Part shown: positions 37,365-41,497 of the stretch, in pieces | Position numbering within the stretch: the first letter of the stretch is position 1 | How the letters are laid out: each line of letters begins with the position of its first letter | Origin: Rhodobiaceae bacterium | GTDB lineage: Bacteria; Pseudomonadota; Alphaproteobacteria; Parvibaculales; Parvibaculaceae | Direction of reading: 5' to 3' | NCBI GenBank assembly: GCA_021404525.1 | Contig: JAAWWE010000007.1 | Span: forward strand, 62,001 to 126,000 | Length of the DNA stretch: 64,000 bases | Notes under the pieces: model-generated | What the model saw: the letters and a program-made list of their open reading frames with translations, nothing else | The model's database searches: none | What the model was told of the DNA's origin: nothing | Program-made: the position numbers and the translations under genes

Positions 37365-39407
37365 ATGTTCAACGATACGTCCAAATCGGTCGATCTGTCA
37401 GAGATCGAGGCCACCGTTTCGGCGATTATTACAGGCGAACGTCAGGCTGTTCGCCGGACTAAGGGCGCGGAGACCGCGGAACCAGAAATGCCATTCGAAG
37501 CCGCAGATCAGACGGTCCAGTATGAAGGCCGTCCATCAGTAAAAGTCGATCGCTCTCGCGATGCGCTGCTGACCGAGTTCGGCAAGGCGACCTTGACCGA
37601 CCGCTATCTGATGCCTGGTGAGAGCTTCCAGGACCTGTTTGCCCGTGTCGCGAGCTACTACGCCGACAAGGACGATCCAGACCACGCCCAGCGTCTTTAT
37701 GACTACATTTCCAAGCTGTGGTTCATGCCAGCGACCCCCGTTCTTTCAAACGGCGGCACCGAGCGCGGCCTGCCCATTTCCTGCTTCCTGAACGAAGCCA
37801 ATGACACGCTGGAAGGCATTGTTGGTCTCTGGAACGAAAATGTCTGGCTCGCAGCCAAAGGCGGCGGCATCGGCTCCTACTGGGGCAACCTGCGCTCCAT
37901 CGGCGAAAAAGTCGGCGGCAACGGTAAAACGAGCGGCATCGTTCCTTTCATCCGCGTGATGGACTCGCTTACCTTAGCGATCAGCCAGGGCTCGCTCCGT
38001 CGTGGCTCGGCAGCTTGCTATCTGCCAATCGATCACCCGGAAGTCGAAGAGTTCATCGAGATCCGCCGTCCAACCGGGGGCGATCCGAACCGCAAGGCGC
38101 TCAACCTGCACCACGGCATTCTGATTTCTGATGCGTTCATGCGCGCCGTGGAGAATGACGAGGACTGGGCGCTTCTCTCGCCAAAAGACAAATCGGTTCA
38201 GAAGACCGTCTCAGCACGCTCGCTTTGGATCCGCATGCTCACCGCACGCATCGAAACCGGCGAGCCTTACATGATCTTCAAGGACACAGTGAACAATGCG
38301 CGCCCTGAGCAGCAAAAGCTTGCAGGCCTTGAGGTAAAGACCTCAAACCTCTGCGCTGAAATTACCCTGCCAACCGGCATTGACCATCACGGCAAGGCAC
38401 GCACCGCGGTCTGCTGTCTCTCGTCCTTGAATGTTGAGAAGTTCCAGGAATGGGAAAGCCATCCGCAATTCATCGAAGATGTGATGCGCTTCCTCGACAA
38501 TGTCATCCAGGACTTTATCGACCGCGCGCCCGATGAAATGGCGCAAGCGAAATATTCCGCGATGCGCGAACGCTCTGTCGGCCTCGGCGTCATGGGCTTC
38601 CACTCTTTCATGCAAGCCAACATGATCCCATTTGAGGGCGTGATGGCGAAGGTCTGGAACAAGAAGATCTTCAATCATATTGACGGTCAGGCATCAGCCG
38701 CCTCAAAGAAACTGGCTGAAGAGCGCGGCGCCTGCCCCGATGCCGAAGATTACGGCATCATGGAACGCTTCTCCAACAAGTCAGCTGTCGCACCGACCGC
38801 ATCGATTTCCATCATTTGCGGTGGCACGTCGGCGGGCATTGAGCCCATCGCGGCAAACAGCTTCACCCATAAAACGCTGTCGGGCTCCCACAATGTGCGG
38901 AACCGTCACCTGACGAAGCTCTTGGAAGAAAAAGGCCGCAATGATGATGAGACCTGGTCGTCCATTGTCACCAATGGCGGCTCTGTCGCCCATCTTGATT
39001 TCCTGGATGACCTGGAAAAAGACGTCTTCAAGACAGCCTTTGAAATCGATCAGCGCTGGGTCATCGAGCATGCTGGCGACCGTGCGCCCATGATCGACCA
39101 GGCGCAAAGCGTGAACCTCTTCGTGCCTGCCAATGTGCATAAGCGCGAGCTGCACCAGCTGCACTTCCAGGCCTGGAAGCAGGGCGTGAAATCGCTCTAC
39201 TACTGCCGCTCGCTCTCAATCCAGCGCGCAGAAAGCGACAGCTCCCATCAGGCGAAGGAAGCCGAAAAGGCAAGCGGCGCGGCGGATATTCCACTCAAGA
39301 CCCTCACCGAGGTTGCCGTGGAAACCCGTCTCTCTCAGAACGAGCCTGCGCAGAAGATCAACCCGGCTGAGATGAACGATTATGACGAGTGTCTCGCCTG
39401 CCAGTAG
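37365..39407 (+). CDS. nrdA: Ribonucleoside-diphosphate reductase, alpha subunit
   Basis: 680 aa. It reduces ribonucleotides to deoxyribonucleotides. Redox cysteines Cys140 (PISCFLNE) and Cys350 (AVCCLSS), thiyl-radical Cys330 (NLCAEI), radical-transfer tyrosines in SLYYCRS, and the C-terminal shuttle pair DECLACQ are all present. The N-terminal ~55 residues are short and acidic, with no ATP-cone, so overall-activity control by dATP is probably missing. GGGGGCAG precedes ATG 37365. nrdB follows after a 133-bp gap holding a palindrome. Confidence 0.96.
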   Translation: MFNDTSKSVDLSEIEATVSAIITGERQAVRRTKGAETAEPEMPFEAADQTVQYEGRPSVKVDRSRDALLTEFGKATLTDRYLMPGESFQDLFARVASYYADKDDPDHAQRLYDYISKLWFMPATPVLSNGGTERGLPISCFLNEANDTLEGIVGLWNENVWLAAKGGGIGSYWGNLRSIGEKVGGNGKTSGIVPFIRVMDSLTLAISQGSLRRGSAACYLPIDHPEVEEFIEIRRPTGGDPNRKALNLHHGILISDAFMRAVENDEDWALLSPKDKSVQKTVSARSLWIRMLTARIETGEPYMIFKDTVNNARPEQQKLAGLEVKTSNLCAEITLPTGIDHHGKARTAVCCLSSLNVEKFQEWESHPQFIEDVMRFLDNVIQDFIDRAPDEMAQAKYSAMRERSVGLGVMGFHSFMQANMIPFEGVMAKVWNKKIFNHIDGQASAASKKLAEERGACPDAEDYGIMERFSNKSAVAPTASISIICGGTSAGIEPIAANSFTHKTLSGSHNVRNRHLTKLLEEKGRNDDETWSSIVTNGGSVAHLDFLDDLEKDVFKTAFEIDQRWVIEHAGDRAPMIDQAQSVNLFVPANVHKRELHQLHFQAWKQGVKSLYYCRSLSIQRAESDSSHQAKEAEKASGAADIPLKTLTEVAVETRLSQNEPAQKINPAEMNDYDECLACQ

Positions 39408-39414
39408 AACATAA

Positions 39415-39444
39415 TGTCATTGCCCGACTTGTTCGGGCAATCCA
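39415..39444. repeat. Solo palindromic repeat between nrdA and nrdB
   Basis: 30 bp with ends TGTCAT...ATCCA, arms TTGCCCGA/TCGGGCAA and loop CTTGT. It shares the ends and loop (CTTGW) with the pair flanking the GIY-YIG gene but has different, self-complementary arms. No T-run follows, so it is not a terminator. Confidence 0.75.
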
Positions 39445-40570: not shown

Positions 40571-40600
40571 TGTCATCCTCGGGCTTGACCCGAGGATCCA
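40571..40600 (+). repeat. Left palindromic end of the GIY-YIG element
   Basis: Begins TGTCATCCTCGGG, loop CTTGA, ends CCCGAGGATCCA. Arms ATCCTCGGG/CCCGAGGAT. Confidence 0.85.
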
Positions 40601-40621
40601 TTGGGCCGTCCTTCAAAACAC

Positions 40622-40915
40622 TCAGCTAACGATCTCCTCGTACAAATCCCGCCAGTCCGGATTGTCTTTCTCAATCAGATCAATCTTCCACTGACGTACC
40701 CAGTGCTTGAGGTTTTTCTCCCGCTGGATGGCACTTTCGATGCTGCCATGGGTTTCAAACCATACGAGCCGCTTCACGCCATGTGTTTTCGTGAAGCCAT
40801 CAACAAGACCTTTCTTGTGTTCATGGACACGGCGCACAAGATTGTTGGTGACGCCTATGTAAAGCGTCCCATTCCTTTTGTTCGTCAGCATGTAGACATA
40901 GTAGCTCTTGTCCAT
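40622..40915 (-). CDS. GIY-YIG nuclease domain protein
   Basis: 97 aa, a lone GIY-YIG domain: YYVYMLTNK and TLYIGVTNNLVRRVHEHK carry the two tyrosines and the Arg, and SAIQREKNLKHW the Glu. The basic C-terminal WKIDLIEKDNPDWRDLYEEI is typical of a small GIY-YIG group that occurs in several copies in many bacterial genomes. The gene lies wholly between inverted palindromes. Expected activity is DNA strand cleavage; possible roles are repair or movement of the flanking repeats. The AGGAG upstream is rather far (15 bases) from ATG 40915. Confidence 0.92.
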   Translation of the reverse strand: MDKSYYVYMLTNKRNGTLYIGVTNNLVRRVHEHKKGLVDGFTKTHGVKRLVWFETHGSIESAIQREKNLKHWVRQWKIDLIEKDNPDWRDLYEEIVS

Positions 40916-40934
40916 GGGTTGAGCGTTCCGCTCC

Positions 40935-40964
40935 TGGACCCTCGGGTCAAGCCCGAGGGTGACA
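40935..40964 (-). repeat. Right palindromic end of the GIY-YIG element (inverted)
   Basis: On the - strand begins TGTCACCCTCGGG, loop CTTGA, ends CCCGAGGGTCCA. On this strand the next bases (GGAGCGG) resemble those after the solo repeat (GGGGCGG). Confidence 0.85.
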
Positions 40965-41104: not shown

Positions 41105-41497
41105 ATGGCCGACGTCACTTTGACCACAAGCTTATTCTGGGCAGCAAGTTTGCTTTCGCTTGTCGGTTTCGGCATTCACACGATTGCCGGGCAAAGACTT
41201 GTGATGACGCCGCTCATGGGAAATGAACATCTGGAGCTGCAGCAGAGGTGGTTTCACTTTGTCGCCTGGCACGGGGTCTCTATTTCATTCGCGGCCTATA
41301 CGGCGGCCTTCGCCTATGCCGCACTAAGCCCAGGCGGTCTGGATGTGGCGATTTTGATGACGATCATGAACGCGGCAATCGCGCTCATGTTCATCGGCGT
41401 TGGCGTCAAAGGCGACCCGATGGTTTTCAAATTCCCGGGGCTTTATCTCGCCCTTGGAACGACCGCCCTTGGCGCCGCAGGCGCGCTCACCGCTTAG
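41105..41497 (+). CDS. Small integral membrane protein, unknown
   Basis: 130 aa, four predicted membrane helices (about 8-30, 48-72, 78-98, 105-128) with a short charged loop around residues 34-48. No family recognised with confidence. GGGGGCAC precedes ATG 41105. It converges on the DUF3604 gene. Confidence 0.7.
   Translation: MADVTLTTSLFWAASLLSLVGFGIHTIAGQRLVMTPLMGNEHLELQQRWFHFVAWHGVSISFAAYTAAFAYAALSPGGLDVAILMTIMNAAIALMFIGVGVKGDPMVFKFPGLYLALGTTALGAAGALTA

Follow-up and report, generated by a model that had tools for sequence, protein, structure and literature searches.

The window, a stretch of 64,000 nucleotides on contig C4 of a 4.16-Mb Rhodobiaceae genome (G000), contains a gene for a 97-aa GIY-YIG protein between a gene that we take to be nrdB and a small ORF at 41105 (the names nrdA and nrdB were assigned by our reading of the window ORFs). 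This gene is framed by two inverted palindromic units, and a third, related unit stands by itself in the presumed nrdA-nrdB gap (Table 1).

Table 1. Positions of the nuclease gene and its associated repeat units in the window
Feature	Position	Strand	Basis
Solo CGTC-type REP unit, nrdA-nrdB gap, no adjoining nuclease gene	39415..39444	+	Motif read
CGTC-type REP unit, 3' side of nuclease gene	40571..40600	+	Inverted-repeat search, read directly
GIY-YIG nuclease gene, 97 aa	40622..40915	-	ORF list, Pfam
CGTC-type REP unit, 5' side of nuclease gene	40935..40964	-	Inverted-repeat search
Complete REP-gene-REP unit (394 bp; head-head pair with outward tags), gap 3' of nrdB	40571..40964	.	Direct reading

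The two 30-nt arms are 93% complementary, are separated by 334 nt, and are longer than those of the other 3 inverted pairs detected between positions 39400 and 41000. The 3' unit consists of a TGTC tag, a 9-bp stem, a 5-nt loop, and a CCA tail that faces the nuclease gene; the CCA tail of the 5' unit stops 19 nt short of the nuclease ATG. A T run lies 3' of the 3' unit when read on the strand of the gene. The two differences between the arms are compensatory, because they amount to a single T-A to C-G exchange within the stem. The initial annotation of this DNA had described a GIY-YIG gene framed by inverted 30-bp palindromes, compensatory differences between them, and a third related repeat without a gene, and all of these descriptions hold. 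In the window genome as a whole, a unit pattern with fixed spacing has 4 matches and a looser pattern has 9, each vs 0 in the backward control, and the REP-gene-REP arrangement is therefore real and not due to chance. The same genome has an inverted gene-less pair of units on another contig (C58:132589-132679).

The window palindromes fit the CGTC-type REPs described by Di Nocera, De Gregorio, and Rocco in 2013 (PMC3733652), based on their TGTC tag, 9-bp stem whose first pair is A-T, 5-nt loop, and CCA tail, and hence the repeats themselves are not new. According to the parts of that paper available to us, CGTC REPs have a CGTC or TGTC tag, a stem of 8 to 9 bp that nearly always begins with A-T pairs, a loop of 4 to 5 nt, and a CCA tail; most come from Alphaproteobacteria, the usual arrangement is a head-head pair with external tags, and dRS3 of Neisseria is counted among them. 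Table 1 of the same source gives the superfamily a minus for an associated transposase gene.

The 97-aa protein matches the Pfam GIY-YIG family at 62 bits (cut-off, 22.6), and GIY-YIG and T5orf172 are its only Pfam matches. The AlphaFold2 model has a pLDDT of 92.9. The best PDB sequence match is the UPF0213 protein 1zg2 (E = 1e-10), which is also the only entry at E ≤0.001 in a fold search, followed by Slx1 entries at 0.003 to 0.03; the small GIY-YIG proteins of UPF0213 and Slx1 have this fold in common with the window nuclease. Residues Y19, G21, R29, H33, E66, and N85, which we take to be the GIY-YIG catalytic positions, are invariant in 35 sequences. They fit a GIY-YIG active site, and the protein is thus a predicted endonuclease. 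Among 16 gene pairs for which dN/dS was computed, 13 have dS >0.1, and 11 of these have dN/dS values of 0.01 to 0.11 (the exceptions are 0.61 in L013/L020 and 0.24 in L156/L157), so that the gene is under purifying selection in most of the pairs compared.

Two candidate assignments of the enzyme were rejected. RAYTs are the HUH/Y1 tyrosine enzymes of GTAG REPs, and membership in that group is contradicted by the Pfam matches and by the GIY-YIG fold. A group I intron homing endonuclease is likewise a GIY-YIG enzyme bound to a selfish element, but the protein scores only 23.2 bits against TIGR01453 (cut-off, 56.05), and an Rfam scan of the window found tRNA only and no intron. Unlike intron homing endonucleases, the nuclease subgroup occupies many different gaps.

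A scan of named genomes found at least 588 relatives of the nuclease, and we kept the 80 best of these loci. We scored 185 distinct nuclease copies for units (GTC, stem, short loop, and CCA) within 150 bp. This set excludes L001 to L007, matches spanning <76 residues, and matches with E above 1e-8, and copies with an identical gene and 60 bp upstream were counted once. A CGTC-type unit lies within 150 bp of 156 of the 185 copies: 100 copies have units on both sides with the tags outwards, 47 have a unit on one side, and 9 have units in the opposite orientation only. In control windows more than 600 bp away at the same loci, units were found in 21 and 23 of 2843, or about 0.8% per orientation. 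The flanking palindromes that the initial annotation had proposed to look for at other copies of the gene are thus the rule, and the GIY-YIG nuclease gene is a regular associate of a REP class that, in the available parts of PMC3733652, is without a transposase gene. As a negative control, we used 14 more distant GIY-YIG loci from genomes of the window's family, comprising UvrC and small proteins (12 of 14 weak family matches, with two fragments left out, plus L002 and L003). Unlike the nuclease subgroup, none of these has a unit within about 230 bp.

The copies with units on both sides include representatives from Alphaproteobacteria, from Caenimonas soli, Gallionella, and Propionivibrio (presumably all Betaproteobacteria), and from the Flavobacteriaceae Mariniflexile and Flavivirga, as well as from metagenome-assembled genomes (MAGs) labelled Moranbacteriota (one MAG), UBP14, and Deltaproteobacteria, although MAG labels may be wrong. 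In two of the Flavivirga matches, the called open frame is interrupted by a stop.

No unit was detected within 150 bp of the remaining 29 copies. The detector refuses most stems with a mismatch, in copies and controls equally, and it missed the downstream unit of L017, which has one. Since this unit was missed, and since the reading frames of L012, L023, and L027 enter the downstream unit, some of the 29 copies are probably detector misses. In L012, L023, L027, L177, and L183, the C-terminus of the nuclease seems to be translated from the downstream REP unit (e.g., PLGPGTRPG). Another 8 copies from the window's family (L048, L056 to L059, L065, L066, and L080) have a PAVYI motif near the start and no unit nearby, and several of them have conserved flanks in common; these may represent a domesticated branch. 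The PAVYI motif is also present in two named copies that do carry a unit (L139 and L148).

The geometry of the framed genes is nearly constant. In genes flanked at both ends by units with outward tags, GTC is preceded by C or T without exception in the 98 left units and in 99% of the right ones; GTC and the CCA tail were demanded by the detector, but in the window they were read directly, and CCA is present in all three units. The distance from CCA to the start codon has a median of 19, with quartiles of 18 and 21.5 (98 copies). Unit body lengths are 20, 21, or 23 in 134 of 139 labelled copies, and the window unit has a 9-bp stem and a 5-nt loop. The head-head orientation is that of the 100 copies framed with tags outwards vs the 9 with the opposite orientation only (the 20 gene-less pairs L281 to L300 were chosen as plus-then-minus neighbours and are not a test of it). 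The compact form of the unit is YGTC-hairpin-CCA, gene, TGG-hairpin-GACR. Outside the YGTC tag, the stretch from -4 to -13 is poor in G (0.098 vs 0.31 farther out). This bias is strand-asymmetric and occurs at both ends, in the 98 framed genes and in the gene-less pairs L281 to L300; it may reflect a target preference, belong to the element itself, or be connected with a terminator.

Hairpins of 8 to 9 bp near both ends of a gene could be merely its transcription terminators or insulators, and the T run after the 3' unit in the window and an outer flank that is G-poor on the inward strand, hence C-poor when read outwards, would suit that function. We nevertheless consider this explanation very improbable. 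One of the two units is upstream of the start codon, the unpaired YGTC and CCA are conserved, other GIY-YIG genes do without units, and the window genome has units and inverted pairs elsewhere without any gene.

Comparisons of orthologous gaps show occupied, empty, and gene-less states. In the Shinella plasmids WSC3-e and HZN7, a block of units and nuclease lies between two genes, and in three Shinella relatives the same gap has no unit, although the edges are not base-exact (L261, from Shinella zoogloeoides, with another gene in the gap, was left out). In the Bradyrhizobium gap that we take to be dnaN-recF, 29 of 30 loci were readable (L246 was excluded). A nuclease element of ~364 bp is present in 5 of these, with the gene confirmed in 5/5; a gene-less pair is present in 5, of which 2 have both arms intact and 3 have at least one degenerate arm; a 74- to 77-bp short form without intact units is present in 10; and 9 have other nuclease-free sequence. 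The gene-less Bradyrhizobium pairs and the nuclease element of L178 have common inner ends, CCACGTCTT at one end and ACGTGG at the other, which are slightly altered in the degenerate pairs. At the presumed nrdB gap, 22 of 30 family loci have no intact unit within 700 bp and 8 are in varied states, including a different nuclease element 3' of nrdB in G011 and a gene-less pair in G029; here the flanks are too diverged for exact edges. L039 and L081 each have their own nuclease element in a common gap, and these differ in sequence type and orientation, again with blurred edges. Gap edges are not base-exact because the compared genomes have diverged.

The initial annotation had called the locus a possible mobile element. 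Of this, the occupied and empty states of one orthologous gap stand, since the block is missing from the Shinella relatives, and these are also the empty sites that it had proposed to compare; a base-exact insertion of the 394-bp unit was not caught. A search for a base-exact empty site with the joined flanks of gene copies gave one poor match, in a set of loci that are all gene-bearing. For the Rhizobium plasmid L222, none but its own record had both flanks among the 40 of 50 matches listed. On the same plasmid, a regularly spaced array of gene-less head-head pairs follows the nuclease element (L222:2492-3400). No target-site duplication is evident outside the ends, where direct repeats occur in 4 of 98 copies vs ~6 expected by shuffling. 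The nuclease is carried by 32 of 72,556 plasmid records and by 1 of 50,697 phage records, the latter a distant match, and based on this near-absence, horizontal spread of the element is not evident. The element looks chromosomal, selected, and slow to move. RAYTs are likewise chromosomal, under selection, and slow-moving.

The repeats co-vary with the nuclease that they frame. The two units of one gene have the same length in 93 of 95 cases and a mean identity of 0.865 vs 0.277 when shuffled, with 0 of 2000 shuffles reaching an equally high identity. On the nuclease tree, the unit length class of 134 copies changes 19 times, vs a shuffled mean of 53 and minimum of 45 (trees keep 176 proteins, excluding those with stops or outside 80 to 130 aa, and 5 of the 139 labelled copies were excluded for their rare unit lengths). 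Within the window's family, 59 unit-bearing copies in 29 genomes require 5 changes, whereas 200 shuffles that exchanged labels only inside a genome gave 16 on average and never fewer than 11. Because there are fewer length-class changes than in these within-genome shuffles, we conclude that within one cell, different nucleases have different, matching repeats. Since the co-variation survives within-genome shuffling, an effect of the host is ruled out as its cause.

These results bear on whether the nuclease arrived by chance, as a passenger, between existing REPs in insertion-tolerant, REP-rich gaps. Such capture would account for the observation that the same gaps contain different nucleases or gene-less pairs across species. 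However, it would not be expected to give a repeat type that tracks the nuclease lineage even inside one genome, two units of a gene that match each other, nearly fixed spacing, and a pairing that recurs across phyla, and we regard this explanation as scarcely credible and close to refuted.

The distribution of the nuclease is patchy. In the window's family, it is found in 34 of 40 genomes at E ≤0.001 and in 30 of 40 at <1e-20, and in the window's class in 83 of 289 genomes at E ≤1e-10, with 1 to 10 copies each. Units were counted across the class as the sum of two strict patterns, the first with 0 backward-control matches in 289 genomes and the second with scattered control matches, mostly one per genome. 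At least 3 units are present in 44 of 83 nuclease-bearing genomes vs 20 of 206 others (Fisher odds ratio, 10.5; p = 1.8e-14, with kinship ignored). Among the 31 families with both states, nuclease genomes are richer in units in 17, the opposite holds in 5, and 9 are ties (p = 0.017, ties omitted). Within the window's family, where nuclease-bearing was defined by matches <1e-20 and the control count is 4, the median is 34.5 units in 30 nuclease-bearing genomes vs 11.5 in 10 nuclease-less genomes (p = 0.0006; for units per Mb, p = 0.008). There are 28 of the 83 nuclease-bearing genomes with no match to either strict pattern, and some of these zero counts need not be real, because the strict patterns miss the common TTCCCGC-type stem. 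Conversely, 13 nuclease-negative genomes contain at least 5 units and up to 123. A profile search of these 13 genomes found distant relatives of the nuclease in 6 and none in 7, and the 7 distant-relative loci have no unit at any. Based on these unit-rich genomes that lack a unit-associated nuclease, units can outlive the nuclease, manage without it, or be served by another enzyme. Five genomes (G131, G143, G273, G304, and G313) have 53 to 123 CGTC-type units with no nuclease of the subgroup detected.

The persistence of units in nuclease-free genomes would also be expected if the enzyme were a housekeeping nuclease that trims or resolves REP cruciforms, with the REPs spreading by other means and selection holding the enzyme close to the DNA on which it acts. 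The purifying selection seen in most gene pairs, the place of the structure-specific nuclease Slx1 as the next fold match after UPF0213, and the domesticated look of the 8 unit-less family copies are consistent with this as well. We consider it unlikely, since a trans-acting enzyme needs no framing by two units at a near-fixed distance of 19 nt, and such a role would predict neither that one genome has several divergent copies with a matching repeat for each nor that the nuclease is present in only 83 of 289 class genomes.

Based on the pairing of genes and units, their geometry, the nuclease-specific co-variation of the repeats, the gene-less pairs, the presence and absence in gaps, and purifying selection, we think it likely that the small GIY-YIG nuclease is a dedicated partner of CGTC-type REPs and that gene-less head-head pairs are non-autonomous derivatives. 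In the mechanism that we propose, the nuclease would recognise the hairpin, either as single strand at the replication fork or as a cruciform, and would nick beside the unpaired YGTC and CCA bases of the folded unit, after which host repair would copy the unit pair to a new place. The nuclease gene would act in trans on gene-less pairs. GIY-YIG enzymes are not known to carry out strand joining, and the host would therefore have to supply this step, in keeping with the lack of target duplications. We also lean, with somewhat less assurance, toward the broader proposal that CGTC REPs and their GIY-YIG nuclease constitute a second REP mobilisation system of independent evolutionary origin in Alphaproteobacteria and other phyla, in which an enzyme of unrelated fold would have assumed the part played by RAYT for GTAG REPs, and in which cutting at the hairpin tags and host repair would seed gene-less pairs.

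REP/RAYT systems and REPINs, the subject of PMC2817692, PMC3116915, and PMC8266576, resemble the present system in that REPs of the matching type flank the gene for a small nuclease, enzyme and repeat co-vary, gene-less pairs are numerous, and transmission is mainly chromosomal and vertical. Such a relation, with a GIY-YIG enzyme in the place of the RAYT, had been suggested by the initial annotation and is supported by the units at 156 of 185 copies and by the Shinella relatives without the block. The difference lies in the enzyme, which in RAYTs is of the HUH/Y1 type and here has the GIY-YIG fold, to which the former is unrelated and for which no strand-joining step is known. By analogy, the nuclease may work like a RAYT without being one.

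The initial annotation had also remarked that it knew of no such system in the literature. This has to be divided: the repeats are known, and the pairing of nuclease and REP is apparently undescribed in the open-access literature, where we found no paper linking GIY-YIG with REP or dRS3 and, among the matches listed in broader searches, none with a title or opening of the abstract that points to the pairing (preprints and most subscription journals were outside this scope, and a description may already exist). The available portions of a 2025 REP survey (PMC12306157) and of a paper on Bradyrhizobium REPs (PMC5082802) contain no word beginning with "nuclease." The route by which CGTC REPs spread had been open, because no associated transposase gene was reported in 2013 in the available parts of PMC3733652, and our results suggest that the nuclease is the long-missing partner enzyme of this known family of scattered repeats. 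The spread of CGTC REPs becomes directly testable, given a named enzyme with its active site, a substrate that is defined, and enzyme-repeat pairs that match within single genomes. If the proposal is true, REP systems driven by an enzyme had two or more origins in folds that are unrelated, and a population of repeats throughout a genome can be run by a GIY-YIG nuclease without a strand-joining transposase.

Two further arrangements were observed among the relatives. Two or three nuclease copies occur in tandem in L180, L189, and L113, with own units for each copy in L180 and L189, and the Neisseria gonorrhoeae relative L224 adjoins dRS3-type units whose tags point inwards.
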